A DNA stretch of 53,194 nucleotides, taken from positions 1 through 53,194 of the forward strand of contig JAFDWK010000015.1 of assembly GCA_018268515.1 (NCBI GenBank), in the 5' to 3' direction. Positions 1 to 53,194 of this stretch are shown here, one piece after another (the first letter of the stretch is position 1; every line of letters begins with the position of its first letter). The stretch comes from Actinomycetota bacterium. Lineage in GTDB: Bacteria; Actinomycetota; Actinomycetes; Actinomycetales; Microbacteriaceae. Under the pieces are notes generated by a model that worked only from the letters and a program-made list of their open reading frames with translations, had not been told where the DNA came from and made no database searches. A program made the position numbers and the translations under genes.

Positions 1-54
1 GGTCGGGTATTGCGGTCATGGCGCGGGGGTAGCCGCACTCTGCGCCCAGCGGGC
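1..54 (+). repeat. 61-bp palindromic element, copy 1 (truncated, degenerate)
   Basis: Bases 1-54 align with the last 54 positions of the element. The inner ATTGCGG block is intact, but the right arm has drifted (GCGCCCAGCGGGC instead of GCGACCAGCGAGC). The first seven bases lie outside the window. Confidence 0.8.
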
Positions 55-106
55 GGGGGGGGGTGGGGTCCGGCCCCGCTCGGGGGAGGGCGTGGGGCCT
101 GGGTCT

Positions 107-167
107 GCTCGCTGGTCGCGTATTGCGGTCATGGCGCGGGGGTAGCCGCAATCTGCGACCAGCGAGC
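107..167 (+). repeat. 61-bp palindromic element, copy 2
   Basis: Outer arms GCTCGCTGGTCGC (107-119) and GCGACCAGCGAGC (155-167) are a perfect 13-bp inverted repeat. A second nested pair, ATTGCGG (122-128) and CCGCAAT (146-152), is also perfect, so the transcript or single strand could fold into a long two-segment hairpin. Confidence 0.93.
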
Positions 168-218
168 GGGAGGGGGTGGGGTCCGACCCCGCTCGCGGGA
201 GGGCGTGGGCCTGGGTCT

Positions 219-279
219 GCTCGCTGGTCGCGTATTGCGGTCATGGCGTGGGGATGGCGGCAATCTGCGACCAGCGAGC
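219..279 (+). repeat. 61-bp palindromic element, copy 3
   Basis: Outer arms at 219-231 and 267-279 are identical to copy 2. The inner pair has one mismatch (ATTGCGG at 234-240, CGGCAAT at 258-264). The length is again exactly 61 bp. Confidence 0.93.
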
Positions 280-302
280 GAGGAGGGGTCGGATCCGACC
301 CT

Positions 303-363
303 GCTCGCTGGTCGCGTATTGCGGTCATGGCGTGGGGATGGCCGCAATCTGCGACCAGCGAGC
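303..363 (+). repeat. 61-bp palindromic element, copy 4
   Basis: Outer arms at 303-315 and 351-363 match copies 2 and 3 exactly, and the inner pair is perfect. This copy is closest to the MFS gene, ending 23 bp before its stop codon. Confidence 0.93.
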
Positions 364-386
364 GGGAGGGGGCGACGCGTGCGCGA

Positions 387-1952: not shown

Positions 1953-1970
1953 GGGAAGCTCCGGTTGTAA

Positions 1971-2043
1971 TTGGATGATTACGAGCGCTGGAGTCAATGT
2001 AGTAATCAAATGATTACAAAGTCAAGTGATTCGCTGATAACCT
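1971..2043. promoter_or_regulatory. Shared tetR/MFS operator-promoter
   Basis: For the MFS gene (minus strand) a -35 TTGACT (2025-2020) and -10 CTACAT (2002-1997) are 17 bp apart. Between them lies GTAATCA-AA-TGATTAC (2002-2017), a palindrome with perfect 7-bp arms, and a further half site TGATTAC lies at 1976-1982. A bound TetR dimer would cover the exporter promoter. For the plus-strand regulator, TAACCT (2038-2043) sits exactly 6 nt before its ATG. The local drop in G+C is typical of an operator. Operator assignment is inference from symmetry and context. Confidence 0.78.
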
Positions 2044-2049
2044 TTCGAC

Positions 2050-2694
2050 ATGACTTCCGCAGCGACCACAGATCCCGGCGTCGGCGAGGAGCCGGGGCGC
2101 CGGCTCTCCTCCGAGGAGCGGCGTGCGCAGATCATCCTCGCCGCGCTCCGGGTCTTCGGCTCGCGCGGCTACGAGGGGGCGACCACCGACCAGGTCGCCC
2201 GCGTCGCCGGGGTCAGCCAGCCCTATGTCGTGCGGCTGTTCGGCACCAAGGAGAAGCTCTTCCTCGCGACACTCGAGTTCGGCCTCGACCGTCTGCTGGC
2301 CGTCTTCCGCGAGGCTCTCGCGGCATCCGATGAGGGCGGGGAGCGCCCGGCGGGCAAACGCATCGGCGAGGCGTATGTCGACCTCATCGAGGTGCGGGGC
2401 CTGCATCAGACCCTCGCGCACGCCTACCTGCTGGGCAGCAACCCTGCGATCGGCGCGGCGGCGCGCCAGGGCTTCGCGAGGGTGTGGCGGTTCTTCCGCG
2501 ACGAGATGGGGCTCGAGGCCGACGAGGCGCGCACGTTCCTCGCCGAAGGCATGCTCATCAGCACCTTGATCGGCCTGCGCATCGTCGACGACTACGGATC
2601 CGATCCGCAGATCACCGAGCTGTTCCGCGCGTGCTTCCCGAACAAGCTCCCGCACGTGCTCGAGGTGCTGCCGCGCAGCGAGCACCTGCTGTAG
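2050..2694 (+). CDS. TetR/AcrR family transcriptional regulator
   Basis: A 214-residue repressor. The N-terminal TetR helix-turn-helix spans about residues 24-75, with RRAQIILAALRVFG, then GYEGATTDQVARVAGVS and the recognition helix region PYVVRLFGTKEKLF. The C-terminal part is the usual all-helical ligand-binding and dimerisation region. The ATG at 2050 has no ribosome-binding site; a TAACCT hexamer ends 6 nt upstream, so the mRNA is probably leaderless. It is divergent from the MFS exporter and very probably represses it through the palindrome at 2002-2017, being released when a drug binds. The ligand is unknown. Confidence 0.92.
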   Translation: MTSAATTDPGVGEEPGRRLSSEERRAQIILAALRVFGSRGYEGATTDQVARVAGVSQPYVVRLFGTKEKLFLATLEFGLDRLLAVFREALAASDEGGERPAGKRIGEAYVDLIEVRGLHQTLAHAYLLGSNPAIGAAARQGFARVWRFFRDEMGLEADEARTFLAEGMLISTLIGLRIVDDYGSDPQITELFRACFPNKLPHVLEVLPRSEHLL

Positions 2695-3003
2695 CCGCGA
2701 GACAGCGGGCCCGTGAGGGCGCGGCGGATGCAGGAGGCCGCGACTCATGCACGTGCCGCATGCACGTGCCGCGACGGATGCAGGCGCGCCAGATGCCCGA
2801 TGCTGCGACGCACGAAGCTGCGACCCATGCGCGACGGTTCCGGTGATCCGGCCCTGCAGGCGTCGCGCGATCCTGCCGGTGTCGCGCTTTCCGCCGCACA
2901 CGGCGTCACCCGTTTCCGGGGATTCGCGACGCCGTGTGACGGGAGATGACCGCCGATGACAACGCGGGCGCGGACGCGAGCCGGATCCGAATATCGTCGC
3001 GCC
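2695..3003. other. Intergenic region with 11-bp-arm hairpin
   Basis: No credible gene. A direct repeat of ATGCACGTGCCGC occurs at about 2747-2772. A perfect inverted repeat, CACACGGCGTC (2897-2907) and GACGCCGTGTG (2928-2938), has a 20-nt loop and could end the tetR transcript, though no T-run follows. The downstream end carries the -10 like hexamer TATCGT (2992-2997), 6 nt before the OsmC start. Confidence 0.6.
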
Positions 3004-3555: not shown

Positions 3556-3567
3556 CCGGGGGCGGGC

Positions 3568-4935: not shown

Positions 4936-4960
4936 GCGCCCGCCGTTCTTGAGTCGTTCC

Positions 4961-5979: not shown

Positions 5980-6065
5980 CGGTGAGGTGTGCGGCTGCCC
6001 GAATGCGCCGCGCGCCGACGATCCCGACCGGGAGCCGTCGTATCCGTTCCGTGGAGGCAGCGCTG

Positions 6066-9000
6066 ATGAAGTCCGTCCCCGATGAAGGGCACCGCATGGT
6101 TCCCTCGTCGTTCCGCAGAAGAGGGGCGCGACTCGGCGCCCTCGCCGCGACCACCGTCGCGGCGCTGAGCTTCGGCTGCCTGGCAGCCGTCCCGGCGTTC
6201 GCCGACACGACCGGCACCGGTGTCGTGATCAACGAGGCCTACCTCTCCGGCGGCAGCGCCGGCGCGGCCTACAAGAACAAGTTCGTGGAGCTCTACAACC
6301 CGACGCACGACGCGGTCACGCTCGACGGGCTGTCCCTGCAGTACCGCTCGGCGACCGGCACCGGCAGTTCGACCGGCACCGTCCCGCTCTCCGGCACGAT
6401 CGCGGCCGGCGGCTACTACCTCATCCAGGGCAGCAGCAACGGGACGAACGGCGCGGCCCTGCCCACGCCCGACGCGACCGGCAGCCTGAACCCGAGCGGC
6501 AGCTCCGGCACGATCGCGCTGGTCAAGGGCGCGGCCGCCATCAGCCTCCCGACCGGATCCGTCACCGGCACCACCGACGTGATCGACCTGCTCGGCTACG
6601 GCACGTCCAACACCTTCGAGGGTGCGGCGGCCACGGCTCCCTCCAGCAACACCGACGTGCGGTCGCTCAACCGCACGAACGGGGCCGACACCGACTCGAA
6701 CAGCGCCGACTTCACGCTGTCCGCCACGCTGTCCCCGAAGAACACGTCCGCCGCGGCCGAGTTCCCGACCGACCCCGGCACAGGCCCCGAGCCGACCCCC
6801 ACCCCGACCCCGACCGACACCCAGGCCCCGGGCGAGACCAAGACCATCGCCGAGGTGCAGGGTACGACCGACACCTCGCCGTTCGTCGACCAGACCGTCA
6901 CCGTGCGGGGCATCGTGACCGGCGACTACCGCACCGGCGGCTACAAGGGCATCAGCATCCAGACCGAGGGCACCGGAGGCGACGTCAAGACCGACGGCGC
7001 CTCGGACGGCATCTTCGTCTACCTCAACGCGCTGGCCCCGTCCGTCGCCCGCGGCGACCTCGTCTCGGTGACCGGCAAGGTCTCCGAGTACTTCGGCCAG
7101 ACCCAGATCACCCCGGCCGCGGTCGGGGACATCGCGGTCGTGAAGGCCGGCGTCGGTGTGCCGCAGCCCGTCGCGCTGCCCGACAGCGTGCGCGGTGCGG
7201 ACCGCGAGGCGTACGAGAACATGCTCGTCGCGCCCACCGGCACCTACAAGCTCGCCTCCAGCCACCAGCTCTACAACTACGGCGCGCTGTGGCTCAACGC
7301 GGGTGACAAGCTCAACGTCAAGGCCACCGAGCTCGCGCGCCCGGGTGTCGATGCCGCCGCGATCACGGCCGCGAACCGCGCGAACCGGATCCTCCTCGAC
7401 GACGGATGGTCGTCGCAGATCGGCAAGGGCGGCCACACCGGCGGCCAGCCGTACTTCACGAAGGACACGGTCGTCCGCAACGGCGACACCGTGAACTTCC
7501 CCGCTGAGGGCGAGATCCTGCAGTACGGCTTCGACGACTGGCGGCTGCAGCCGGTGGTGCCCATCTCCGGCACCAGCGACGCTTCGCACAAGCCCACGTT
7601 CGGTTCCGAGAACCCGCGCCCGGCCGCTCCGCCGGTCGTCGGCGGTGACGTGAAGGTGGCGTCGTTCAACGTCTACAACTTCTTCACGACGCTCTCCAGC
7701 CAGGACGCGAACGCCCGCGGCGCCAAGACCGACGCGCAGTTCAAGATCCAGCGGTCGAAGATCGTCTCCGCGATCAGCGGCCTGGATGCCGACGTCGTCG
7801 GCCTCATGGAGGTCGAGAACGGGCCGAAGTTCGGCCTCGCTCTCGACGCGCCGCTCCAGAACCTCGTGCAGGGTCTCAATGACGCGGCGGGATCCGAGGT
7901 GTGGGACTACGTCCGTACGCCGAAGGCACTGAACGACACGTCGATCACCGACGTGATCACGACCGCGATCATCTACAAGAAGGCGTCCGTCACCCTCAAG
8001 GGCGACGCGTCGACCATCATCGACGAGACCGTCTTCGGCAACGCGCGCGAGCCGATCGCGCAGACGTTCCAGACGACGCAGGGTCGGGTGTTCTCGATTG
8101 TCACCACGCACCTCAAGTCGAAGTCGCCGCCGCAGAACGCGGGGCCTGAGCCGGCCGACGGCCAGGGCTTCTTCAACGCCGATCGCGTCGCCCAGGCCAA
8201 GGCCGAGCTCGCGTTCGCGCAGAAGGTGCAGAAGGACTCGGGCAGCGATGACGTCTTCCTCGTCGGCGACTTCAACGCCTACGGCAAGGAGGACCCGATC
8301 GACGTCTTCACCCAGGCCGGGTGGACCGACGTCGAGCCGACGCACGCGGCCGGTCAGTACACCTACTCCTTCGACGGCGAGCTCGGTTCGCTGGACCATG
8401 TGATCGCGTCGCCCTCCGCGGCGAAGGCCGTCACCGGCGCCGGCGTGTGGAGCATCAACTCGCCGGAGTGGAGCGACCGCGGCTACGCCTTCGCGGCTAC
8501 CGAGGCCGGCACCCCGTACCGCTCCAGCGACCACGACCCGATTCTGGTCGGCGTCAAGGGCGCGGCGGATCCGATCGACATCAACGTCGCGACGATCAAC
8601 GACTTCCACGGTCGTATCGAGGCCGACGGCGCTGCCGCCGGAGCCGCGGTGCTGGCCGGGGCGGTCGAGCAGATCCGGGCGCAGAACCCGAACACGATCT
8701 TCGCGGCCGCGGGCGACCTCATCGGCGCCTCCACGTTCACGTCCTTCATCCAGCAGGACAACCCGACGATCGATGCGCTCAACGCCGCCGGTCTCGATGT
8801 GAGCGCGGCGGGCAACCACGAGTTCGACCAGGGCTACGCAGACCTCCGCGACCGCGTGCAGAAGCGCGCTGACTGGACCTACCTCAGCTCGAACGTGTTC
8901 GTCACCGAGACCGGTGAGCCCGCGCTCACCCCCGCCTGGGTGAAGGACGTGCAGGGCGTCAAGGTCGGCTTCATCGGTGCGGTGACCGAGGATCTGCCGA

Positions 9001-11087
9001 CCCTCGTCTCGCCGGACGGCATGAAGGGTCTCGAGGTGCGCAGCATCTCCGACTCGGTGAACAAGGTCGCGGCAGCGCTGAAGGACGGCGATCCGTCCAA
9101 CGGCGAGGCCGACGTGATCATCCTGCTCGTGCACGAGGGGGCGACCACGACCGATGTGGCGAGCATCACCCCCGAGTCGCGGCTGGGCGCGATCGTCCAC
9201 GGCGTCGACAAGAGCGTGAACGCGATCGTCTCGGCGCACACGCACCTGGCGTACAACCACGTGATCGACGGGCGTCCGGTGGTCTCCGCCGGCCAGTACG
9301 GCGAGAACCTGGGCCTGATGGACCTCAAGGTCGACCCGACGAGCAAGAAGCTCCTCTCGATCACCAACGAGATCAAGCCGCTCACGGCGGGCGGCAAGCC
9401 CGCCTTCCCGGCAGACCCGGAGGTGCAGGCGATCGTCGATGCCGCCAAGGCGAAGGCCGCGGAGCTGGGGTCGGTCAAGCTCGGCGACATCACCGCCGAC
9501 TTCAACCGCGCCCGGCAGAGCGACGGCAAGACGGAGAACCGCGGTGGCGAGTCCACCCTGGGCAACTTCGTCGCCGACGTGCAGAAGTGGTCGACCGGCG
9601 CGGACTTCGCGGTGATGAACCCGGGCGGTCTGCGCGCCAACCTCACCTACGCGTCCAGCGGCGCCGGGGATGCGGACGGCAGCGTCAGCTACAAGGAGGC
9701 CGCGACCGTGCAGCCCTTCGCCAACACGCTCATGACGGTGAAGCTCACCGGGGCGCAGGTGAAGCAGGTGCTGGAGCAGCAGTGGCAGCCGGCGGGTTCG
9801 GCACGTCCGTTCCTCAAGCTCGGCGTCTCCAAGGAGCTGACCTACACGTACGACCCGGCCGCTGCGGCGGGCGCGCACATCACGGGCGTCCTCGTGAACG
9901 GCGCTCCGATCGATCCGGCCGCGACCTACACCGTGGGCGCGAACGCCTTCCTCGCGGCGGGCGGCGACGCGTTCACGGCCTTCCGGAGCGGCGCAGACAA
10001 GAAGGACACCGGCAAGGTGGATCTGCAGTCGATGGTCGACTGGTTCGCGGCGAACAAGACGGCGTCCCCGGACCTCGCCCAGCGCGCGGTCGGCGCCGTG
10101 CTCTCCGCTCCCGCCGATGCGGCCGGCTACAAGGCCGGGGAGAGCGTCACGCTGAACCTCAGCTCGCTCGCGTTCAGCGCGGGGGAGAAGACGCCGGGCG
10201 ATGCCACGGTGTCGCTGGGCGGCAAGGACCTGGCCACCGCACCGGTGAACCCGGCCATGACCCTGGACGCCTTCGACGAGGCGGGCACGGCCATGCTGAC
10301 GTTCACGATCCCCGAGGGCATGACGGGCGCGCAGGCACTGCAGGTCTCGGTCGCCGGCACCGGCACCGCGGTGCGGCTGCCGATCACGGTCGCCGGATCC
10401 GACACCGGATCCTTCAACGGCACGATCTCGGTCGACGCGGCCAAGGTCCTCGCGGGCGAGAAGCTGATGCTGACCGGCCAGGCCTTCGAGCCCGGCGAGA
10501 CGCTGACGCTGCAGCTGCGCGAGCAGGGCAAGAAGGGCACGGTCATCGACCTCGGCACCGTCAAGGTCGGCGGCGACGGCTCGTTCTCCGCATCGCCGGT
10601 GGTGCCGCGCTCCGTGAAGGGCGGTGACTATCTCGTCGCTGCGACGCAGGCGGACGGGGACGAGGCGACCGCCGCCGTCACCGTGGTCCGCGGCAAGGGC
10701 CAGCTCAAGCTGGGCGCCTCCTCGGTCACCGCGGGCGGCACGGTCACGATCTCCGCATCGGGTCTCGAGGAGAACGAGAAGGTGGCGCTCGAGCTGCACT
10801 CCACCCCGGTCTCGCTCGGCTCGGCGACGGCGAACGCGGACGGCGCCTTCACGGCCACCGTCACGATCCCCGCCGGCACTGCCGCGGGGCAGCACCACGT
10901 GGTGGCGATCCTGTCGGACGGCTCCCAGATCACCGCGGCGATCACCGTCGCTGCGGCGGGATCCGCGGCCGGCGGTGGTCTCGCGCTGACCGGCGCGGAC
11001 TCGGGCTCGTTCCTGCTCCTCGCCGCGGTGCTGCTCGCACTCGGCCTGGGCCTGATCGTGGCCCGTCGTCGCCTGCGCGCGGAGTGA
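6066..11087 (+). CDS. Secreted, wall-anchored nuclease/5'-nucleotidase fusion (ExeM/NucH-like)
   Basis: A 1673-residue multidomain exoenzyme. In order: signal peptide with twin arginines in RRRGARLG and a cleavage site after AVPAFA; lamin-tail domain (GVVINEAYL, about 51-200); OB-fold-like domain (about 257-375); endonuclease/exonuclease/phosphatase domain (about 529-830; SFNVYNFF, MEVENG, DFNAYG, SSDHDPIL); calcineurin-type phosphoesterase (about 838-1075; DFHGR, AAGDLIGAS, AGNHEFDQG, SAHTHLAYNH); 5'-nucleotidase C-terminal domain (NPGGLRANL); Ig-like repeats; then LALTG (1639-1643), a transmembrane helix and RRRLRAE. LALTG fits the LAXTG sorting motif used by class E sortases. The likely job is degrading external DNA and dephosphorylating the nucleotides to recover phosphate and nucleosides. 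The start could also be the ATG at 6096. Confidence 0.92.
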   Translation: MKSVPDEGHRMVPSSFRRRGARLGALAATTVAALSFGCLAAVPAFADTTGTGVVINEAYLSGGSAGAAYKNKFVELYNPTHDAVTLDGLSLQYRSATGTGSSTGTVPLSGTIAAGGYYLIQGSSNGTNGAALPTPDATGSLNPSGSSGTIALVKGAAAISLPTGSVTGTTDVIDLLGYGTSNTFEGAAATAPSSNTDVRSLNRTNGADTDSNSADFTLSATLSPKNTSAAAEFPTDPGTGPEPTPTPTPTDTQAPGETKTIAEVQGTTDTSPFVDQTVTVRGIVTGDYRTGGYKGISIQTEGTGGDVKTDGASDGIFVYLNALAPSVARGDLVSVTGKVSEYFGQTQITPAAVGDIAVVKAGVGVPQPVALPDSVRGADREAYENMLVAPTGTYKLASSHQLYNYGALWLNAGDKLNVKATELARPGVDAAAITAANRANRILLDDGWSSQIGKGGHTGGQPYFTKDTVVRNGDTVNFPAEGEILQYGFDDWRLQPVVPISGTSDASHKPTFGSENPRPAAPPVVGGDVKVASFNVYNFFTTLSSQDANARGAKTDAQFKIQRSKIVSAISGLDADVVGLMEVENGPKFGLALDAPLQNLVQGLNDAAGSEVWDYVRTPKALNDTSITDVITTAIIYKKASVTLKGDASTIIDETVFGNAREPIAQTFQTTQGRVFSIVTTHLKSKSPPQNAGPEPADGQGFFNADRVAQAKAELAFAQKVQKDSGSDDVFLVGDFNAYGKEDPIDVFTQAGWTDVEPTHAAGQYTYSFDGELGSLDHVIASPSAAKAVTGAGVWSINSPEWSDRGYAFAATEAGTPYRSSDHDPILVGVKGAADPIDINVATINDFHGRIEADGAAAGAAVLAGAVEQIRAQNPNTIFAAAGDLIGASTFTSFIQQDNPTIDALNAAGLDVSAAGNHEFDQGYADLRDRVQKRADWTYLSSNVFVTETGEPALTPAWVKDVQGVKVGFIGAVTEDLPTLVSPDGMKGLEVRSISDSVNKVAAALKDGDPSNGEADVIILLVHEGATTTDVASITPESRLGAIVHGVDKSVNAIVSAHTHLAYNHVIDGRPVVSAGQYGENLGLMDLKVDPTSKKLLSITNEIKPLTAGGKPAFPADPEVQAIVDAAKAKAAELGSVKLGDITADFNRARQSDGKTENRGGESTLGNFVADVQKWSTGADFAVMNPGGLRANLTYASSGAGDADGSVSYKEAATVQPFANTLMTVKLTGAQVKQVLEQQWQPAGSARPFLKLGVSKELTYTYDPAAAAGAHITGVLVNGAPIDPAATYTVGANAFLAAGGDAFTAFRSGADKKDTGKVDLQSMVDWFAANKTASPDLAQRAVGAVLSAPADAAGYKAGESVTLNLSSLAFSAGEKTPGDATVSLGGKDLATAPVNPAMTLDAFDEAGTAMLTFTIPEGMTGAQALQVSVAGTGTAVRLPITVAGSDTGSFNGTISVDAAKVLAGEKLMLTGQAFEPGETLTLQLREQGKKGTVIDLGTVKVGGDGSFSASPVVPRSVKGGDYLVAATQADGDEATAAVTVVRGKGQLKLGASSVTAGGTVTISASGLEENEKVALELHSTPVSLGSATANADGAFTATVTIPAGTAAGQHHVVAILSDGSQITAAITVAAAGSAAGGGLALTGADSGSFLLLAAVLLALGLGLIVARRRLRAE

Positions 11088-11105: not shown

Positions 11106-11142
11106 CGAAGGCCGTCGGATCCTCCGGATCCGGCGGCCTTCG
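11106..11142 (+). terminator. Hairpin terminator after the nuclease gene
   Basis: CGAAGGCCG and CGGATCC pair with GGATCCG and CGGCCTTCG to give a long stem with one bulged base. It begins 18 nt after the stop codon. The GAAGGCC...GGCCTTC type recurs at 16126 and 28202 in this window. Confidence 0.85.
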
Positions 11143-11263: not shown

Positions 11264-11764
11264 ATGCCCGCACCCAAGCCTGAGAGCTTCCCGGCCATCC
11301 GCGGGGCGCTGAAGTTCTACCAGATCGCTTCTGTGATCACCGGCGTCATGCTCCTGCTCCTGGTCACGGAGATGGTCTTCAAGTACACCCCGATCCGCCT
11401 CGAGCTCTTCGCGGGCGGATCCGGCGGATTCCTCTGGTTCGCCCCGGTCGTCGAGGGCGTGCACGGCGGCCTCGAGTCCACCGGCAACGGCCTGAACCTC
11501 TCGATGGGGATCCTGGTCGCGCACGGCTGGTTCTATGTGGTGTACCTCTTCGCCTGCTTCCGGGTGTGGAGCCTGATGCGCTGGCCGTTCCTCCGCTTCA
11601 TCCTGCTCGCGCTCGGTGGCGTCGTGCCGTTCCTCTCCTTCATCATGGAGACCCGCGTCGCCCGCGAGGTGAGGGCGTATCTCGCCTCCCGCGAATCCTC
11701 GACAGGCTCAGGGACTGATCCTGAGCAGACCTCGACCGCTCCCGCCCCGGAAGGTGCCCGTTGA
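11264..11764 (+). CDS. DUF3817 integral membrane protein
   Basis: A 166-residue membrane protein of the DUF3817 family, which is commonly found beside guaA in actinobacteria; its biochemical role is not known. About three to four hydrophobic segments are visible, starting with [19 protein letters not shown]; the conserved region [20 protein letters not shown] follows. TAGAAT (11252-11257) ends 6 nt before the ATG, so the message is probably leaderless. The soluble tail ends [11 protein letters not shown], encoded by a copy of a short dispersed repeat also found in pcrA. Its stop overlaps the TTG start of guaA by 4 nt (TTGA), so the two are translationally coupled. Confidence 0.88.
11697..11717 (+). 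repeat. Short dispersed repeat (CCTTCGACAGGCTCAGGGAC family), copy 1
   Basis: CCTCGACAGGCTCAGGGACTG lies in the last codons of the DUF3817 gene and supplies the peptide STGSGTD. Related copies are at 21425-21447, in the same reading phase inside pcrA, and 47177-47200, inverted and intergenic. Confidence 0.75.
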
Positions 11765-13347
11765 CCGACAACACTCCCGACACCGAGCAGCGCCCCGCCC
11801 TCGTCGTCGACTTCGGCGCGCAGTACGCGCAGCTGATCGCCCGCCGCGTCCGTGAAGCCGGCGTCTACAGCGAGATCGTGCCGCACACCGCGACCGCCGC
11901 CGAGATCGCGGCGCGCAACCCGGTCGCCCTGATCCTCTCCGGCGGTCCGTCCTCGGTCTACGAGGAGGGTGCGCCCGAGCTCGACCCGGCCGTGTTCGAG
12001 CTCGGAGTGCCGACCCTGGGCATCTGCTACGGCTTCCAGTACATGGCCCGCACGCTCGGCGGCGAGGTCGCGAACACGGGACTGCGCGAGTACGGCGCGA
12101 CCGACGCCGCGATCCCCGCCAACGAGTCGAGCCTGCTCAGCGGCCAGCCGGTCGCGCAGAACGTCTGGATGAGTCACGGCGACCAGGTCTCCCGCGCCCC
12201 CGAGGGCTTCGAGGTGCTCGCCTCGACCGGAGCGACCCAGGTCGCCGCGTTCGCCGACGAGGAGCGCCGGCTCTACGGCGTGCAGTGGCACCCCGAGGTG
12301 AAGCACTCCGACCACGGCCAGGAGATCATCGAGAACTTCCTGCACAAGGGTGCGGGCCTGGCGGCCGACTGGAACAGCGGCAACGTCATCGCCGAGCAGG
12401 TCGAGCGGATCCGCGCGCAGGTCGGCGACGCCCGCGTGATCTCCGCGATGTCCGGCGGCGTCGACTCCGCCGTCTCCACCGCGCTCGTGCACCGGGCGAT
12501 CGGCGACCAGCTCACCGCGGTCTTCGTCGACCACGGACTGCTGCGCAAGGGCGAGCGCGAGCAGGTCGAGCGCGACTTCGTGGCGGCGACCGGCGTGCGC
12601 CTGATCACGGTCGACGCGGCCGACACGTTCCTCGGCCACCTCGCCGGGGTGACGGATCCGGAGACCAAGCGCAAGATCATCGGCCGCGAGTTCATCCGCG
12701 CCTTCGAGCAGGTGCAGCGCGACCTGGTCGAGGAGGCCAAGGCCTCGGGGGAGAAGGTCCGCTTCCTCGTGCAGGGCACGCTGTACCCCGATGTCGTCGA
12801 GTCCGGCGGCGGCGCGGGCACCGCGAACATCAAGTCGCACCACAACGTGGGGGGCCTGCCCGACGACCTCGACTTCGACCTCATCGAGCCGCTGCGCACC
12901 CTGTTCAAGGACGAGGTGCGCGCGATCGGCCGCGAGCTCGGGATCCCCGAGGCGATCGTCGGACGCCAGCCGTTCCCCGGGCCGGGTCTCGGGATCCGCA
13001 TCATCGGCGAGGTCACCCGCGAGCGTCTCGACATCCTGCGCGAGGCCGACGCGATCGCCCGTGAGGAGCTGACGCTCGCCGGTCTCGATCAGACCATCTG
13101 GCAGTGCCCGGTCGTGCTGCTCGCCGATGTGCGTTCCGTGGGCGTGCAGGGCGACGGCCGCACCTACGGCCACCCGGTCGTGCTGCGCCCCGTCTCCTCC
13201 GAGGACGCGATGACGGCGGACTGGACCCGGCTGCCGTACGACGTGCTCGCGAAGATCTCGAACCGCATCACCAACGAGGTGCGCGAGGTCAACCGCGTCG
13301 TGCTCGACGTGACCTCCAAGCCGCCGGCAACCATCGAGTGGGAGTGA
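11761..13347 (+). CDS. guaA: GMP synthase (glutamine-hydrolysing)
   Basis: A 528-residue cytosolic enzyme converting XMP, ATP and glutamine to GMP. The N-terminal class I amidotransferase has nucleophile C89 in GICYGFQYM and the partner His177/Glu179 in GVQWHPEV. The ATP pyrophosphatase domain begins with the P-loop SGGVDSAVS near residue 231, and the C-terminal dimerisation domain ends with [13 protein letters not shown], the canonical GuaA end. The length is normal. It starts with TTG at 11761, overlapping the DUF3817 stop codon; no separate promoter is seen. guaB3 lies upstream on the same strand with unrelated genes between. Confidence 0.98.
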
Positions 13348-13576: not shown

Positions 13577-13617
13577 TGTCCGATCCGCGGAAGGGCGGTG
13601 GGGCAGGATCCACCTCT

Positions 13618-13678
13618 GCTCGCTGGTCGCATATGGCGGGCTGGAGGGCGGCTGAGCCGCAATTCGCGACCAGCGAGC
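13618..13678 (+). repeat. 61-bp palindromic element, copy 5
   Basis: The outer arms GCTCGCTGGTCGC (13618-13630) and GCGACCAGCGAGC (13666-13678) are identical to those of copies 2-4, more than 13 kb away, and the length is again 61 bp. The centre differs and has its own small stem (GCGGCTGAGCCGC). Conserved arms with a variable core suggest that the arms are what is maintained or recognised. Confidence 0.92.
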
Positions 13679-13724
13679 GGAACGGACGGCGCGGCCGCAC
13701 GCTCGGATCCGGCAGGATGGAGGC

Positions 13725-14663
13725 ATGGCGAACGGACGCACCAAACTGACGGTCATCGGAGCGGGCGGGGTCGGGGTGAGCGTCGCCTATGCGGCGCTGA
13801 TCCGGGGGAGCGCATCGGAGGTCGCGCTCTACGACATCGCGACGGAGAAGGTCGATGCCGAGGTGCTCGACCTCGCGCACGGAACCCAGTTCACGGCGTC
13901 ATCGGTGAGCGGCGGATCCGATCTCTCCGTCGTCGACGGCAGCGACGTGATCGTCGTGACTGCGGGCGCCAAGCAGCAGCCGGGCCAGACCCGCATGGAG
14001 CTCGCGGGAACGAACGTGCGGATCCTGCAGAGCCTCCTGCCCGCCCTGGTCGAGCGCGCGCCGGACGCGATCTACATCATCGTGACGAACCCGGCGGATG
14101 TGATGACGGTCGTCGCGCAGCGGATCACCGGGCTGCCGGCCGCGCGGGTGTTCGGATCCGGCACGGTGCTGGACACCTCGCGGCTGCGCTGGCGGCTCGC
14201 CCAGCGTGCGGGCGTGAGCACCGCGAGCGTGCACGCCGATATCGTGGGCGAGCACGGCGACACCCAGTTCCCGCTCTGGTCGAACGCCACCATCGGCCCG
14301 GTGCCGATCCTGGACTGGCCCGCGGCCGAGCCGTTCACGCCCGAAGAGCTCGACCGCATCGCGATCGAGGTGCGCGACGCCGCCTACGCCGTCATCCGCG
14401 GCAAGGGTGCGACGAACCTCGCGATCGGGGTCAGCGCGGCGCGGATCGTCGAGGCGGTGCTGAACGACGAGCACGCGGTGCTGCCCGTCGCCACCGTGCT
14501 CGACGGCGTGCACGGCATCGAGGGCGTCGCACTGTCGATCCCGAGCGTGGTGAGCGCCGAGGGTGCGGTGCCGGTGTCGGGGACGCCGATGACGGCCGCG
14601 GAGGAGGCGAAGCTCGCCGCGTCGGCCGCGGCGATCCGCGCCGCGCTGGACGAGCTGGGCTGA
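13725..14663 (+). CDS. ldh: L-lactate dehydrogenase
   Basis: A 312-residue NAD-dependent dehydrogenase interconverting pyruvate and L-lactate. The Rossmann motif is [10 protein letters not shown] at the N-terminus, the mobile substrate loop reads [12 protein letters not shown] (a glutamine at the specificity position, as in LDH rather than the arginine of malate dehydrogenase), followed by [18 protein letters not shown] and catalytic His177 in [11 protein letters not shown]. The length is normal for bacterial LDH. CAGGAT (13713-13718) ends 6 nt before the ATG, giving a probable leaderless transcript. A convincing hydroxyacid dehydrogenase; the lactate assignment rests on the loop glutamine. 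Confidence 0.94.
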
Positions 14664-16059: not shown

Positions 16060-16125
16060 ATCCGGAGTCTAGAAGTCCTCCGGATCAGGTGGGCGGAGCG
16101 GATCCGGATCCCTCCGCAGCGACGA

Positions 16126-17212: not shown

Positions 17213-18214
17213 GTGACCCGACGGATCCCGCTCGACGTCCCCCTGATCATCGGCCATCGCGGCGCTCCCGGCTATCGTCCGGAGCACACCGCCTCCTCCT
17301 ACCGCCTCGCGTTCGCGATGGGTGCGGACGCTGTCGAACCCGACGTCGTGGCGACGAGCGACGGCGTGCTGGTGATCCGGCACGAGAACGAGATCTCCGG
17401 GACGACGGACGTCGCCGACCGGCCCGAGTTCGTGGATCGGCGCACCACGAAGCGCATCGACGGCGTGCCGCTCACGGGCTGGTTCACCGAGGACTTCACC
17501 TGGGCCGAGCTGGCGACGCTGCGCTGCCGCGAACGCCTTCCGGCGCTGCGGCCCGGATCCGCCGGCTTCGACGACATCGAGCCGATCCTGCGTCTGACCG
17601 ACCTCCTGGAACTCGTGGCGGAGTCCTCGGCCGAGCACGGGCGGGAGCTCGGCGTGGTGCTGGAGATCAAGCACGCCACCTTCTTCGCCGGGATCGGGCA
17701 TGACCTGGCGGCCCTGGCCGAGCGCGATCTGCGCGCGGCGGGCTGGGCGTCGGGCGAGCATCCGCTGTGGCTCGAATCCTTCGAGCAGAGCGTGCTCACC
17801 GACCTGCGCACGCGCGGTGTGCACGGGGAGTACGTCTACCTGCTCGAGGCCGAGGGGGCCCCGGCGGACCTCGTCGCGCGCGACGGCGCGTCGGCGGCGA
17901 CCTATGCGGATGCGCTCACCCCCGCGGGGCTGGACGCCCTGACCGGCGTCGTCGACGGCATCAGCGTGGACAAGCAGATCCTGCTGCGGGACTCCGGTCC
18001 GCAGCTCGTCGCCCAGGCGCATGCCGGGAATCTCGCCGTGTTCACCTGGACCTGCCGCCCCGAGAACGCCTTCCTCGATCGGCGCTTCCGCACCGGTGCC
18101 GGTGCGGCGTTCGGCGACTATCGCGCCGAGTGGGCGGCGCTCGCCGCGACCGGTGTGGATGGAGTGTTCGCGGACCACCCGGATCTCGGGGTCGACGTCT
18201 TCCAGCGGGCATAG
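17213..18214 (+). CDS. Glycerophosphodiester phosphodiesterase
   Basis: A 333-residue GDPD-family enzyme that hydrolyses glycerophosphodiesters to glycerol 3-phosphate and an alcohol. The metal and catalytic sites are visible: IIGHRGAPGYRPEHT near residue 15, then DAVEPDVVATSDGVLVIRHE, and LEIKH in the middle. No signal peptide is seen, so a cytosolic location is likely. TACGCT (17201-17206) lies 6 nt before the GTG start, giving a leaderless transcript. The length matches the longer, GlpQ-like group rather than the 240-residue UgpQ type. Confidence 0.92.
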   Translation: MTRRIPLDVPLIIGHRGAPGYRPEHTASSYRLAFAMGADAVEPDVVATSDGVLVIRHENEISGTTDVADRPEFVDRRTTKRIDGVPLTGWFTEDFTWAELATLRCRERLPALRPGSAGFDDIEPILRLTDLLELVAESSAEHGRELGVVLEIKHATFFAGIGHDLAALAERDLRAAGWASGEHPLWLESFEQSVLTDLRTRGVHGEYVYLLEAEGAPADLVARDGASAATYADALTPAGLDALTGVVDGISVDKQILLRDSGPQLVAQAHAGNLAVFTWTCRPENAFLDRRFRTGAGAAFGDYRAEWAALAATGVDGVFADHPDLGVDVFQRA

Positions 18215-18315
18215 GCCCCGCTCCGGATCCGATACCGCGCCAGCACGCTCGTCGGGAACGTGACCGTGCGCGGGTTCGACGACCGCTGTTCCTAGGTGGC
18301 TCCTATGCTGGCGGC

Positions 18316-19383
18316 ATGGACGGAATCGTCGCGGAGGGGGTCGGCCGGTCGTTCGGGAGCGTGCATGCGGTGCGCGAGGCGACCTTCCGGGCGGCCGCGG
18401 GCAGGGTCACGGGGCTCGTGGGGCCGAACGGCGCGGGCAAGACGACGCTGCTGCTCATGCTGGCGTCGCTGCTCGCACCGGATCGCGGCAGCATCCGCGT
18501 CGGCGGGGTCGATCCGATCACGGATCCGACCGCGGCGCGCCGGGTGCTGGGGTGGATGCCCGACGCGCTGGGCGCCTGGCCGTCGCTGACCGCGCACGAG
18601 AGCATCGTGACCACGGCGCGTCTGCACGGTCTGGCCCGGGAGGACGCGCACCGCCGGGCCGCGGAGCTGCTCGCCCTGGTGGGCCTGGAGCCGCTCGCGT
18701 CGTCGCCGGCGAAGGTGCTCTCGCGGGGGCAGAAGCAGAAGCTCGGCCTCGCCCGCGCTCTCGTGCACGATCCGCAGGTGCTGCTGCTGGATGAGCCGGC
18801 CTCGGGGCTGGATCCGGAGGCGCGCGTGCAGCTGCGGGTGCTGCTGCGCCGGCTCGCCGCGGAGGGGCGCACCGTACTCATCTCCAGCCACGTGCTGTCC
18901 GAGCTGGAGGAGGTCGTCGACGACGTCGTCTTCCTCGTCGCCGGGGAGGTCGTGGACGCACCCGCGGCGCAGGCACGCGCCTGGCGGATCCGGATCCTTC
19001 CCGCGCATGACGCCGATGCGCCGGGAGCCGAAGCACACGAGGTGGATGCGCCCGGAGCCGGAGCACACGGCGCCGAAGGGCACGGAATCGAAGCGCGCGG
19101 AGCGGAGGCCCCGGCGGATCCCCGCATCGCCGCGGCGGCGGCGCTGGGCGTCGCGACGGAGTCGCTCGGCATCGACCGGGGCGATGTGCTCGCGGTCTTC
19201 ACGAACGAGCGCGACGCCGCGGCGGGGCTCGCCCGCCTGGTGGGCCGGGGGCTGGCGGTGAGCGCCTTCGCCCCGGCGCAGAGCGAACTGGAGCAGGCGT
19301 TCCTCTCTCTCGGGGATGCGCCGTCGCCCGGGGAGACCCCGTCCCCGGGAGATGCGCCGCAGACCGATGGGGGCGCACGATGA
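18316..19383 (+). CDS. ABC transporter ATP-binding protein with low-complexity insert
   Basis: A 355-residue ATPase of an ABC-2 type exporter. The Walker A motif is GPNGAGKTTLL, the signature is LSRGQKQKLGLARAL, and Walker B is VLLLDEPASGLDP, followed by ISSHVLSELEEV. Between about residues 230 and 268 there is a repetitive Ala/Gly/His/Glu stretch (units like DAPGAEAHE and GAGAHGAEGHG) that is not part of the fold. TATGCT ends 6 nt before the ATG. The stop overlaps the ATG of the permease gene (ATGA), so the two form one unit. The substrate is unknown. Confidence 0.92.
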   Translation: MDGIVAEGVGRSFGSVHAVREATFRAAAGRVTGLVGPNGAGKTTLLLMLASLLAPDRGSIRVGGVDPITDPTAARRVLGWMPDALGAWPSLTAHESIVTTARLHGLAREDAHRRAAELLALVGLEPLASSPAKVLSRGQKQKLGLARALVHDPQVLLLDEPASGLDPEARVQLRVLLRRLAAEGRTVLISSHVLSELEEVVDDVVFLVAGEVVDAPAAQARAWRIRILPAHDADAPGAEAHEVDAPGAGAHGAEGHGIEARGAEAPADPRIAAAAALGVATESLGIDRGDVLAVFTNERDAAAGLARLVGRGLAVSAFAPAQSELEQAFLSLGDAPSPGETPSPGDAPQTDGGAR

Positions 19384-28231: not shown

Positions 28232-28305
28232 TGCGTCTCCGGGTGGATCCGGCCCGACACGGTGCGGGTCCTGCACGGGCGGATCCGGTCCGCAGCAGTA
28301 TCCGA

Positions 28306-33354: not shown

Positions 33355-33485
33355 TCGTCCCCTGCGCGGCGCGGGCCGGCATCGCAGTGGCGGCGTGCGC
33401 GGGCCGCTGCGTCGGCCGGGGCGACACACCGTGGATCCGCGCCCGCCGAAAGGCTCCGGGACCGGATCCACGGGACAATGGCGGG

Positions 33486-34133
33486 ATGACACGTCGGCTC
33501 GCGCTCATCCTCGGCATCGTCGGGGTGGCGATCGCCCTCGCCACCGCGGGGGTGCTGGCGACGACACCCGGGCTGATCGTCTCGCTCGACGACGCGTGGA
33601 ACCTGGAGATGGTCGAGTGGCGCAGCCCGGTGCTCGTCGGCTGGGCCCTGGTCATGAACGTGCTCGGCGGCGGATGGGTCGCCACGATCCTCACGCCGCT
33701 GGTGGTCGCCGTGCTCGCGGCCCTGCTGCGCGGATGGCGCGGTGCGGTGTTCGCGGTGGCGGCGTTCGCGGTCAGCGCGGGGATCGTGCAGCTGGTGAAG
33801 AAGGCCCTGGGCCGGTCTCGTCCGCAGGATCTGCTGATCGCGTCGGACTTCGGATCCTTCCCGTCCGGTCACACCTCGAACGCGGCGACCCTCGCCGTGG
33901 TGCTGTGGTTCCTGTTCCCGACGCTGTGGGTGGCGATCGGTTCGGCGGTATGGACCGTGGCGATGGGCTTCTCCCGCACCGTGCTCAGCGTGCACTGGTT
34001 CAGCGACACCGTCGGCGGGGCGCTGATCGGCGCCGGCGCGGCCTTCCTCGTGGCGGCGGCGCTGTGGCGCTGGGTGCGGCTGCCGGAGGTGCTGGACGGG
34101 CTCGAGGAGCAGGGAGCGGATCCGTCTCGGTAA
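33486..34133 (+). CDS. PAP2 superfamily phosphatase
   Basis: A 215-residue membrane phosphatase. The three-part PAP2 signature is complete: KKALGRSRP, then SFPSGHTSNA, then SRTVLSVHWFSDTVGG, within about six transmembrane helices. Such enzymes dephosphorylate lipid phosphates (phosphatidic acid, undecaprenyl pyrophosphate). GACAAT (33474-33479) lies 6 nt before the ATG, a non-standard but plausible leaderless promoter. An upstream in-frame ATG 99 bp earlier has no support. Confidence 0.9.
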   Translation: MTRRLALILGIVGVAIALATAGVLATTPGLIVSLDDAWNLEMVEWRSPVLVGWALVMNVLGGGWVATILTPLVVAVLAALLRGWRGAVFAVAAFAVSAGIVQLVKKALGRSRPQDLLIASDFGSFPSGHTSNAATLAVVLWFLFPTLWVAIGSAVWTVAMGFSRTVLSVHWFSDTVGGALIGAGAAFLVAAALWRWVRLPEVLDGLEEQGADPSR

Positions 34134-34170
34134 CCTGAGAGGATCCCCGACCCGAGAGGCATGGCCACCC

Positions 34171-43162: not shown

Positions 43163-43390
43163 GCGTCCCTCTCGCCGGGCGCCGCGGTGCGCCCGCGTCT
43201 TGATCGTAACCCGGGCGGGCGCGCCGGGCTCGGCGCTGCGCGCCCCCGTTCGCGCCGTTCACTTGGCACCTCGGGTCGGAATTCGCCGTGAGAAGCGGCG
43301 ACAGGTGCCAGATGAGCGCCCGGTGCGACGAAGGGCGCGCTCTGGAGGGGGATCCGGTCGGACCCGCCCGCGACCTCGGGTAGACTTGTC

Positions 43391-43486
43391 GACGGCTCTC
43401 CGCGTGGCGGCACCCAGGCCAACTCCCCCAGGGCGGAAACGCAGCAAGGGTAACCAGGCTCTGTCGGGTGCGCGGAGGGTCTTTTC
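43391..43486 (+). ncRNA. ffs: SRP RNA (4.5S-type, small bacterial SRP RNA)
   Basis: The ends GGCTCTCCGCG (43394-) and CGCGGAGGGTC (43471-43481) pair as the closing stem. The apical region has the asymmetric loop and GGAA tetraloop sequence GGGCGGAAACGCAGCAAGG recognised by Ffh. TAGACT (43381-43386) gives a start near 43391-43393, and TCTTTTCTTTT (43480-43490) ends it. Its position before the HAD gene and upstream of dnaX-recR is usual in Microbacteriaceae. Confidence 0.95.
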
Positions 43487-43816
43487 TTTTGCCCGGAAGC
43501 CGGCCGTGGCCGGCTCGGGCATTGCGGCCGCGCGAGATGCAGGAGCGGCCGCGCGAGATGCAGGAGCGGCCGCGCGACATGCAGGACGAAACCCGCGGAT
43601 CCGCCCCAAAACAGCCGATTCGACGCTTCGGACGGCCAGCGGTCCTGCGGTGGGCGAGCACGCTCCTGCGTTTCGTCGCGTCGAGCGGGACGAGCGGCGC
43701 GGATCCGCCCCGTCCACGTCTATCCAGGCGCACCGCCGTCCGACTAGCCTTGACCAGGTGGCACCCAGACGTGCCGGTCCGAAAGTTCCCGCTCTCAGCC
43801 ACCCGGAGGCTCCGCC
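43486..43816. other. Gap between SRP RNA and HAD gene with 21-bp triplicate
   Basis: 331 bases without a gene. It has a GC-rich palindrome GCCGGCCGTGGCCGGC near 43499-43514, then three 21-bp direct repeats (43524-43586). The rest is unstructured as far as I can see. Confidence 0.75.
43524..43586 (+). repeat. Three 21-bp direct repeats with NotI-like cores
   Basis: Units GCGGCCGCGCGAGATGCAGG plus A begin at 43524, 43545 and 43566; the third has one change (GACATG). Each contains GCGGCCGC. Confidence 0.9.
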
Positions 43817-50442: not shown

Positions 50443-50466
50443 TGACCCGAAGGACACCCACCCGCA

Positions 50467-51060
50467 ATGTATGACGGCATCGTCCAGGAGCTGATCGACG
50501 AGTTCGGCCGGCTGCCCGGCATCGGCCCGAAGTCCGCTCAGCGCATCGCGTTCCACATCCTGCAGACGCCCTCCTTCGACGTGAAGCGGCTCGCCGAGCT
50601 GCTCACCGAGGTGCGCGAGCGGGTGCGGTTCTGCGAGATCTGCGGCAATGTCGCGGAGCAGGAGCGCTGCGCCATCTGCCGTGACCCGCGTCGCAACGCC
50701 GCGCTGATCTGCGTGGTCGAGGACGCGAAGGACGTCGCGGCGATCGAGCGCACCCGCGAGTTCCGCGGGCTCTACCACGTGCTGGGCGGCGCGATCAGCC
50801 CCATCGCCGGCGTCGGACCCGACGATCTGCGCATCGCCCAGCTGATGACGCGCCTCGCCGACGGCACCGTGCAGGAGGTCATCCTCGCCACCAACCCGAA
50901 CCTCGAGGGCGAGGCGACCGCGAGCTATCTCAGCCGCCTGCTCACGAGCATGCAGATCACCGTGTCCCGGCTGGCCTCGGGCCTGCCTGTGGGGGGCGAC
51001 TTGGAGTACGCCGACGAGGTGACGCTCGGACGCGCCTTCGAAGGGCGGCGCGTTCTGTGA
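50467..51060 (+). CDS. recR: Recombination protein RecR
   Basis: A 197-residue recombination mediator working with RecO and RecF. The N-terminal helix-hairpin-helix is [15 protein letters not shown], the C4 zinc finger is [18 protein letters not shown], and the Toprim domain runs from [16 protein letters not shown] to [18 protein letters not shown]. It starts 24 nt after dnaX; the ybaB/ebfC gene often found between them is absent. Its stop overlaps the GTG of the EamA gene. Confidence 0.97.
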
Positions 51061-52013
51061 GCGAGGGGGCGTTCGGGCGCCGGGGATGGATCCTCTTCGC
51101 CATCATGAGCGTGGTCTGGGGCATCACCTACCTGTTCATCAAGGAGGCCGTCGGATCCTTCTCCCCGCCCGCGGTGGTGGCCGGGCGCACGCTGCTCGGC
51201 GGGCTCGTGCTGCTGCCTTTCGCGATCCGCGGCGGAGCGCTGAAGGCCGCGCTCAAGGTCTGGCCGTGGGTGCTCGCGTTCGGCGCCGTCGAGATGGCGG
51301 GGCCGTTCCTGCTGCTCAGCCACGCCGAATCCCAGCTGCCGTCGGGGCTCACCGGGCTGCTCGTGGCGACCGTGCCGCTGTTCGCCGTGATCATCGCTCT
51401 GCTGCGCGGTGACCGCTCGGCGCTCGCCCCGATGCGGCTGGTCGGCCTGCTGCTCGGGTTCGCGGGGGTGGCGGTCATCGTCGGCGGCCCCGGGCTTTTC
51501 GCGCACGGCACCGCGTCGTTCGTGGCGATCGGCGAGATCCTGCTCACCGCGCTGCTGTACGCGATCGCGCCGTTCATCATCGCGCACAAGCTGGCCGGCG
51601 TGCCCTCGATCGGCACGATCACCTTCGCGCTGCTCGCCGTCGGCACCGTCTACCTGGTGCCCGCCCTGCTCACCCAGCACCAGGTGCCGACCGTGCGCTC
51701 GACGGTCTCGCTGGTGCTGCTGGGAACGATCTGCACCGCGTTCGCGTTCGTCGCGTTCTTCGCCCTGATCCGCCAGGTCGGGCCGGTGCGCGCACCGCTG
51801 TTCACGTACGTCAACCCGGTGGTCGCGATCATCCTCGGCACCATCCTGCTCGCGGAGCCGGTCACGCCCGGACTGCTGATCGGCTTCCCTGTCGTGCTCG
51901 CCGGCTGCTGGTTCGCTGCGACGGGCGGGCGGCTGCGACCCAAGGCCGCGCCGGCGACCGGCCCCGGCACCGCGTCGATCGCGCTGCCGGAGCCGGTCCC
52001 TCCGGTCGACTGA
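51057..52013 (+). CDS. EamA/DMT family transporter
   Basis: A 318-residue permease with ten hydrophobic segments in two EamA halves ([20 protein letters not shown] starts the first, [20 protein letters not shown] the second, with [19 protein letters not shown] near the end). Such exporters handle amino acids, metabolites or drugs; the substrate is unknown. The GTG start overlaps the recR stop (GTGA), so it is part of the dnaX-recR transcript. Confidence 0.9.
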
Positions 52014-52022
52014 CCGCGGGGC

Positions 52023-52496
52023 TCACGCCGTCCGGCGGATGCCCTTCCACAGGGTGATCAGCAGCAGCACGAACGCCGCTCCGATCAGGATGTGACCGGC
52101 CCCGGCGATCCCGGCGATCGCCTTGGACGCCTCGATCTTCTGCACGTCGAGGATCCCGTGCCACATCATCATCGCGCCGGTCAGCAGCACGCCGGCGTTG
52201 TAGATCCAGAAGAACCAGCGGAACAGCCGGCTGGCGGACAGCGCGAACAGCTTCTCGAGGGCGAGCACGATCAGCGTGACGAGGGCGCCGAGGGTCAGCA
52301 GGTGCGTGTGCACCAGGGCGAGCTGCCCGCTGAAGCCGTTCGGGAAACCCTGCGCCTTGGTGAACTCGCGATAGAAGAGCCCGGCGGCCAGCCCCAGCCC
52401 GATCCAGACGACGGCGGCGACGAAGAGCTGGGTGAGCGCACGGCGCTGCGCAGGCGCGGCGGAGGACGAGGCGGTGAGGTCGGAGGAAGTGGTCAT
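52023..52496 (-). CDS. DUF2871 membrane protein
   Basis: A 157-residue protein with four transmembrane segments and conserved histidines in ALVHTHLLTLGALV, MWHGILDVQ and GHILIGAAFV, typical of DUF2871, a small family with possible heme or quinone binding. ATG at 52496 with AGGAGG 9 nt upstream. It converges with the EamA gene with 9 nt between stop codons and no visible terminator. Confidence 0.85.
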   Translation of the reverse strand: MTTSSDLTASSSAAPAQRRALTQLFVAAVVWIGLGLAAGLFYREFTKAQGFPNGFSGQLALVHTHLLTLGALVTLIVLALEKLFALSASRLFRWFFWIYNAGVLLTGAMMMWHGILDVQKIEASKAIAGIAGAGHILIGAAFVLLLITLWKGIRRTA

Positions 52497-52592
52497 GATG
52501 CCAGCCTCCTGTGCCGAGGCGCCGTGCGCATCCATCGAAGGATCGAGACCACGCCGTTGGATGCACCGGCATCGACCGGGGAGAATCGGAGC

Positions 52593-53194
52593 ATGAGCAC
52601 CGGATCCGCTTCCGCGCGCCGGCGGATGCTGCGCGGCGCGCGCTTCGCCCTGCACCTCATCACGGTCGTGCTCGTCGTCGTCACGACCGTGCGGGCGGGG
52701 ATCGGCGGGGAGCTGCTCCCGGTGCTGCTCGCCGCGGCCGTCTATCTCGCCTGGTACGGCGCCGGGGCCGGCTTCGCGCACAAGCGCGCGGCGCTCTGGT
52801 GGATGCTGGGACTGGTGGCGATCTGGATCGGGATGATGGCGCTGTCGCCGGAGTTCGTATGGCTCGTGTTCCCATTGCTGCTGCTCGCCGGGCACGTGCT
52901 GCGCCTGCCCTGGTCGCTGGTGTTCGCGATCGCGGTGCTCGTGGTGGCGATCGTCGCGCCCGCGCTCCGGCCGGGCGGGATCCCGTCCGGCACCCTGCTC
53001 GCGCACTTCGTGGGACCGATCGTCGGGGGTGGCTTCGCCTTCGCCGTGTCGCTGGGCTACGACGCGATGCTCCGCGACGCGGCCGAGCGGGAGCGGCTGA
53101 TCGACTCGCTGCTGCGCGCACAGCGCGAGGCCGAGCGGCTGCACGACGAACTCGCCGCGAGCCAGCGCGAAGCCGGCGCCACCCGCGAGCGCAC
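52593..53194 (+). CDS. Sensor histidine kinase, N-terminal part (runs off window)
   Basis: An open frame of 200 codons to the window edge, with no stop. After a basic start (ASARRRMLRGARFALH) come about six transmembrane segments, then a long charged helix reading SLGYDAMLRDAAERERLIDS followed by LLRAQREAERLHDELAASQR, the usual coiled-coil linker before a HisKA_3 dimerisation domain. This layout is that of NarL-class sensor kinases in actinobacteria. GAGAAT (52581-52586) ends 6 nt before the ATG. The kinase domain itself is outside the window, so the assignment is inferred. Confidence 0.75.
   Translation, partial: MSTGSASARRRMLRGARFALHLITVVLVVVTTVRAGIGGELLPVLLAAAVYLAWYGAGAGFAHKRAALWWMLGLVAIWIGMMALSPEFVWLVFPLLLLAGHVLRLPWSLVFAIAVLVVAIVAPALRPGGIPSGTLLAHFVGPIVGGGFAFAVSLGYDAMLRDAAERERLIDSLLRAQREAERLHDELAASQREAGATRER

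Follow-up and report, generated by a model that had tools for sequence, protein, structure and literature searches.

Why does the hexamer GGATCC, a palindrome and hence a word without strand, recur so often in the DNA of a Microbacterium, a member of the Microbacteriaceae? The stretch that was analyzed (the window) comprises positions 1 to 53,194 of contig JAFDWK010000015.1, i.e., 53,194 nt with a G+C content of 71.0%. The observations set out below show that words of this kind are iterated across the Microbacteriaceae and that the present species uses GGATCC, preferably in the form CGGATCCG; these bacteria seem to have some factor that reads such a species-specific DNA dialect and propagates it.

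GGATCC in the window and the assembly

By direct count, GGATCC occurs 134 times in the window (positions 1 to 53,194), in genes as well as in intergenic DNA, whereas base composition predicts 17.8 copies; the initial annotation had put these figures at about 130 and about 18. Its estimate that about 60 copies extend to a longer word was equally close: 59 are part of CGGATCCG, which is the preferred longer form and the most frequent 8-mer of the window, all 59 copies containing GGATCC. The control word GGTACC, which had been called rare, is found twice, and the 18 words differing from GGATCC by a single base have 4 to 50 occurrences apiece. Markov models of order 2, 3, and 4, fitted on the window itself, predict 38.7, 66.4, and 77.6 copies, with parts of GGATCC itself included in the order-3 and order-4 models; an explanation of the count by a third- or fourth-order model, which the annotation had envisaged, therefore falls short of the 134 copies present.

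Genes were called by a rule of our own based on the G+C content of third codon positions (GC3), by which genes of AT-richer islands get missed. Fully inside called genes lie 116 of the 134 copies (2.46/kb), and 18 lie outside (3.0/kb). The genic copies occupy all six strand/phase classes (39, 27, 24, 13, 7, and 6), in line with the claim that the word appears in every frame, on both strands, and between genes. When synonymous codons were permuted in 35 non-overlapping genes (40.1 kb), 300 shuffles gave 25.9 ± 4.0 copies with a maximum of 38, versus 97 in the real sequence, and outside genes 18 copies in 5,990 nt compare with 3.2 predicted by a first-order model. Both results are at variance with codon-pair bias lacking an intergenic excess, the second explanation considered at the outset. 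The whole assembly (3,714,235 nt in 115 contigs) contains 8,244 copies of GGATCC; this density of 2.2/kb lies within the range of about 0.5 to 2.5/kb of genome-wide iterated palindromes.

Species dialects and turnover of sites

In a survey of Microbacterium, whose per-kb densities rest on rounded genome sizes, 10 of 198 genomes (G000, G161, G175, G220, G228, G232, G265, G292, G296, and G312) carry 1.5 to 2.2 copies of GGATCC per kb and the other 188 carry 0.12 to 0.58/kb; the trait is all-or-none in this genus. The same comparison speaks against loss of a restriction system, one of the causes suggested initially: the 188 congeners lie near the window's composition value of 0.33/kb, and the ten high genomes exceed it by a factor of about five to seven, a density beyond what loss of avoidance alone can produce. 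Among 120 genomes of the family, both genomes of genus g35 are high (1.8 and 1.9/kb) and G004 (genus g5) reaches 0.93/kb; the remaining non-Microbacterium genomes have at most 0.70/kb, and the 55 genomes outside the family, among 59 drawn from the order, at most 0.71/kb. In the table of named loci, which covers 55 of 80 loci picked by us, GGATCC is prominent in Microbacterium excoecariae, Leucobacter sp. OH1287, and an actinomycete metagenome-assembled genome (L188; GuaA 95% identical).

Most other species tested possess a different word. In six low-GGATCC species, the top over-represented hexamer is GGATGC/GCATCC, extending to GGATGCC and CGGATGCCG. Counted on both strands in an 80-genome survey, GGATGCC occurs at 0.16 to 0.36/kb in all ten GGATCC species and at 0.71 to 1.84/kb in 25 of 30 other Microbacterium genomes, the exceptions being G151, G179, G235, G272, and G300 with 0.18 to 0.42/kb. 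It was also found in Agromyces, Ruicaihuangia, Leifsonia, and Pseudolysinimonas, and in 20-kb samples of 20 more Microbacterium genomes it reaches at least 2.3 times expectation in 15; it stays below this value in the samples of G215, G275, G281, G300, and G303, although G275 has GGATGCC genome-wide. Dialect words outside the main survey rest on 12 to 40 kb per genome, and weak entries may be due to chance. Within these samples, the words of further relatives are TGGTTCCG (39 versus 2.4 expected in G235 and 47 versus 3.2 expected in G272, 40 kb), GGATGGCC, CGGATCCT (G004), CGGATGCG (G026 and G028), CCGGATG (M. halophytorum), or ACGGATGC (Cryobacterium frigoriphilum); GGATGGC was found in G151 (50 versus 13.3 expected), CGGAGGCG in G035, GGATGCGC in Zimmermannella, and GGATGCG in Agrococcus. 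No clear word emerged in the sampled DNA of G002, G007, G017, G019, and others. Most dialect words contain CGGA or GGAT flanked by variable bases, most are non-palindromic (e.g., GGATGCC and TGGTTCCG), and one pair, CGGAT-CCG and CGGATGCCG, resembles an insertion.

Some frequent words lie apart from this pattern. CGATCG is also common in the window (91 versus 17.8 by composition, and 73 versus 44.5 after codon shuffling); being equally frequent in low-GGATCC species, it does not belong to the dialect. Words outside the CGGA pattern were seen in L114 and L115 (G016) and in L257 (Demequina), namely TGGGCGTG (19 versus 2.0) and GCCGATGC (24 versus 4.8). L292 (G120:C5:300001-320000) features a cluster of TTTCACGT/CACGTGAA (13 to 14 versus <1 expected), which we take to resemble parS sites.

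The history of the trait was addressed with a tree of a single gene, LeuS, comprising 17 of 20 loci (G106 and G301 were left out because of short matches and G312 for want of a match). Clade A, to which G000, G228, and G232 belong, groups with the low species G123, G246, G224, and G160 (support 100/99), and clade B is separate (100/100). A single clade uniting the eight rows with GGATCC is rejected (approximately unbiased test, p-AU 6.5e-7), and with g35 included three changes are needed. Judging from this tree, GGATCC was gained at least twice within Microbacterium. The GuaA protein of G000 is 96% identical to that of G228, 93% to that of G232, and 83% to that of G312 (clade B); the nearest low species among the matches listed has 92%.

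At aligned positions, G000 shares only 2 of 31 GGATCC sites with the low species G246, 1 of 33 with G301, and 1 of 26 with G160, whereas compositionally equal words show 31 to 33% sharing; the sites are therefore new. Between G000 and its high relatives, 41 of 69 (G228) and 29 of 56 (G232) sites are shared, compared with 53% and 47% of pooled control words; the turnover of single sites is thus close to neutral. Neutral-like turnover at a density that is nevertheless kept points to a continuing DNA-reading process by which sites are made continually. In switched species, almost all copies of the new word are newly written, and the old word is at background level. Specifically, where the low species have GCATCC, G000 has GGATCC in 48 of 113 cases and the unchanged word in 7, whereas control GCATC[AGT] positions show the corresponding change in 22 of 147 cases and no change in 62. 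For GGATGC the figures are 7 of 74 for GGATCC and 8 of 74 unchanged, with 2 of 79 and 33 of 79 in the control. These figures pool six low species and cover 90 distinct positions, at 12 of which GGATCC stands. The synonymous exchange of GGC for GGG in Gly-Ile may ease the route from GCATCC to GGATCC.

Codon choice tracks dialect. In clade A (81,677 codons of G000, G228, and G232, with genes again from the GC3 rule), GGA makes up 11% of the glycine and GAT 19% of the aspartate codons overall, which bears out the statement that these otherwise disfavored codons are used within GGATCC. For aspartate between G and CC, GAT is used in 85% of cases in clade A (n=216; 17% after G elsewhere), 80% in clade B (n=136; 25%), and 50% in the low species, i.e., those with GGATGCC (n=114; 22%). 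Part of this effect is general, since GAT before CC without a preceding G amounts to 39, 39, and 35% in clade A, clade B, and the low species. Between G and GCC, GAT accounts for 68% of cases in the low species (n=323), versus 16% in clade A and 18% in clade B. Glycine before TCC is encoded by GGA in 72% (clade A), 77% (clade B), and 20% (low species); before ATCC it is encoded by GGG in 55, 61, and 4%, with GGC at 92% in the low species. Each dialect thus has its own spelling for similar peptides, and together with the codon-shuffle excess this agrees with the initial proposal that the DNA word rather than the protein is acted on.

Placement of the words

Within 19 loci, GGATGCC is equally frequent on both strands (chi-square 15.1); the strand polarity of Chi or of FtsK-orienting polar sequences (KOPS) was not seen in these loci, whose replichore position is not known. 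Even spacing of GGATCC, hinted at by a variance/mean ratio of 0.65 in the window, was abandoned after 17 loci of GGATCC species gave 0.94 versus 1.00 ± 0.08. The ratio for GGATGCC in 15 low loci is 0.86, a value attained in 5.8% of simulations.

In clade A, GGATCC is dense both in intergenic DNA and in genes. An intergenic excess is not general: ten loci of clade B, five of which are island-like, have 1.02/kb outside called genes versus 1.65/kb inside, a deficit that genes missed in AT-richer islands may explain. For GGATGCC in low loci, the figures are 1.06/kb outside and 1.50/kb inside, and 6.5 kb of divergent gaps contain only 2 copies. Of six island-like loci, five carry 0 to 0.64 GGATCC/kb and the sixth 1.54/kb. 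Near 3′ ends there is a weak excess of the word (39 in 9.9 kb versus 47 in 18.0 kb).

The 18 copies outside called genes in the window, located from the position list and the gene calls, are distributed as follows. Two stand directly after the stop of the plus-strand gene 5982-11087 (positions 11117 to 11131), two (13606 and 13705; 13606 to 13710) between guaA (11761-13347) and a dehydrogenase gene at 13725, and two abut one another (16100 and 16106; 16100 to 16111). One (18225 to 18230) lies between the convergent genes 17213-18214 (plus strand) and 18292-19083 (minus strand), two (28245 and 28281; 28245 to 28286) likewise lie between convergent genes, and one (34141 to 34146) is found just past the stop codon of the plus-strand gene 33387-34133. 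A divergent gap holds three (43350, 43597, and 43701; 43350 to 43706), and the remaining five begin at 291, 17178, 19116, 25365, and 26692 (291 to 26697).

In Min1 and three M. foliorum phages, GGATGCC occurs at 0.9 to 1.5 times expectation, which is a weak test as the dialect of M. foliorum is not established. GGATCC is scarce in the M. foliorum phages SanaSana, Quenya, and Lynlen (L289, L290, and L291), with 2, 0, and 8 copies versus 12.0, 12.8, and 20.5 expected on both strands, as if it were avoided there; Min1 shows no such depletion. A phage-type helicase-methylase encoded in G265 (L036:6410-7222), in surroundings with 0.38 GGATCC/kb, is at most 78% identical to one of an Arthrobacter phage, and no Microbacterium phage was among the matches listed for this query.

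What may spread the words, and what this means

Among the causes suggested initially, we tentatively favor an uptake or repair signal, more precisely the possibility that a reader from the DNA uptake or recombination machinery drives the spread of the words. The predicted protein would read the word genome-wide, regardless of strand, frame, and location, and fragments bearing the current word would be preferred when DNA comes in or is exchanged. Alleles carrying that word would thereby be favored, the word would spread by molecular drive as do the uptake sequences of Neisseriaceae and Pasteurellaceae, and a change in the putative reader would start a new dialect. This reading draws on the all-or-none distribution in 10 of 198 Microbacterium genomes, on GGATGCC in most other species with more words elsewhere and codon choice following dialect, and on neutral-like turnover at maintained density with nearly all sites new relative to low species. 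It also draws on the absence of strand bias in GGATGCC, the low density in most island-like loci, and the lack of strong enrichment in four phages, and on the Neisseriaceae dialects, which have a shared core and a one-base insertion variant. As with uptake sequences, there are thousands of copies, in genes and between them and on both strands, and species dialects with a common core within one family. Competence machinery is present irrespective of dialect: all 54 genomes searched for ComEC have it, and all 35 searched for pilus-type ATPases (T2SSE/Tad-type) have these. In another actinobacterium, Micrococcus luteus, transformation has been linked to Flp/Tad-like pili (PMC6370729).

Several points weigh against an uptake or recombination reader. 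ComEC and pilus-type genes, being present whatever the dialect, do not discriminate, and the sequences of comEC and of two Tad-type loci group by kinship rather than by dialect. No clear word was found in G179 or in 20 kb of G300. The spacing of GGATCC in the 17 loci is Poisson-compatible, not even. Close pairs have no preferred orientation, and inverted-pair terminators, typical of Neisseria and perhaps not defining for uptake sequences, are not prominent. For an uptake sequence, the word is unusually short and in part a palindrome, drive through methylation or repair would look the same in the sequence, and to our knowledge no uptake sequence has been described in Gram-positive bacteria. Dialect-linked alleles of comEC or of the Tad-type loci were sought and none was found, kinship explaining comEC and two Tad-type loci.

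Somewhat less probable is that a DNA methyltransferase marks the word, which would accumulate by methylation-directed mismatch repair, as modeled for cyanobacteria, or by selection for marked sites. According to Elhai 2015 (PMC4390886), the highly iterated palindrome HIP1 and its alternates are palindromes, and every genome with one is reported to have a predicted methyltransferase for part of the word. They are the nearest in form: GGATCC is likewise a short GC-rich word spread genome-wide at about 1 to 2/kb, with other words in some relatives, and one alternate described there, GGGATCCC, contains GGATCC (PMC4390886). The likeness to HIP1 drawn initially thus stands as regards density and spread; it is weakened in that most dialects here are non-palindromic and that none of four methyltransferase Pfam families tracks the word, other methyltransferase families not having been searched, which argues against a simple HIP1-type rule. 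Specifically, PF01555 occurs in 35 of 36 genomes, PF00145 in 17 of 36, PF02086 in 7 of 36, and PF02384 in 19 of 32, unrelated to the word; G220 has the core enzyme alone of the four families, G296 likewise except for one borderline hit to PF02384 (21.6 bits), and G312 (95% complete) has none of them. This core enzyme, a conserved adenine methyltransferase of the RsrI/CcrM type (L028:6037-6984 and orthologues), is family-wide, and its linker after DPPFNTG varies in length. We read and aligned it in 20 genomes of several dialects. In favor of such a mark, two of the three groups with GGATCC, namely clade A and genus g35, have Arg-Glu in common at a place where clade B and the low species have Ala-Ala; on the other side, clade B lacks Arg-Glu, and among 311 ungapped columns no residue is present in all nine GGATCC Microbacterium and missing from six low ones. 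An altered core enzyme as the cause of the dialects was sought in this alignment, and no alteration fits all the GGATCC species.

Unlikely, in our assessment, is a sequence-specific repair or gene-conversion bias that converts near-matches to the word and needs neither uptake nor any function. It would suit the neutral-like turnover, the Poisson spacing, the lack of strand or frame preference, and the involvement of all contexts, but no enzyme was found for it. Transversions account for 19 of 25 one-base differences from GGATCC in G228 and G232, and as this share is like the background of 65 to 71%, T:G-only (Vsr-like) repair is not the cause. A binding site of an abundant chromosome-organizing protein, weakly selected everywhere, would be consistent with the high density in both genic and intergenic DNA of clade A, but sites are conserved no more than control words and dialects switch between close species, which makes it improbable. 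A polar Chi-like or KOPS-like signal shares with the words that these are short, iterated, and different among species; given the strand equality of GGATGCC in 19 loci and the palindromic nature of GGATCC, we consider it very improbable. Composition, codon pairs, or amino acid usage, for which the 77.6 copies of the order-4 model speak even though that model contains the word's own parts, can be dismissed on the basis of the codon-shuffle null, the intergenic excess, and the absence of the trait in 188 of 198 congeners.

The Pasteurellaceae have uptake signal sequences in two dialects, each with a constant and a variable half. Specific uptake has been shown there, whereas the present word is known from sequence alone. 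In Neisseriaceae, according to Frye 2013 (PMC3630211), dialects of 10-mers affect transformation, and inverted pairs are linked to terminators. Those words resemble the present ones in their thousands of genic and intergenic copies and in dialects with a shared core, one with an inserted base; the words described here are shorter and graded, show no marked terminator pairing, and belong to another phylum (PMC3630211). We file the word neither as HIP nor as an uptake sequence. Searches of open-access literature, a scope with preprints and most subscription papers outside, brought up no report of such words in Actinomycetota.

HIP1-type accumulation is hard to explain partly because the word seldom differs among close relatives. 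Here, growable species of one genus differ in an all-or-none manner with at least two gains of the same word, which opens the responsible gene to a search by association, and uptake, methylation-directed repair, conversion bias, and architecture are separable experimentally in these species. For cloning, BamHI sites are to be expected about every 450 bp, and because GGATCC sets local codon choice (GAT 85% versus 17% for aspartate after G), it matters for work on codon usage. It is conceivable, if doubtful as a whole, that the Microbacteriaceae possess a family-wide system of species-specific words for uptake or recombination, with a reader of fast-changing specificity; no such system would have preceded it among Gram-positive bacteria. 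GGATCC would then be the palindromic dialect of 10 of 198 Microbacterium genomes, and a species barrier may be written into codon choice.

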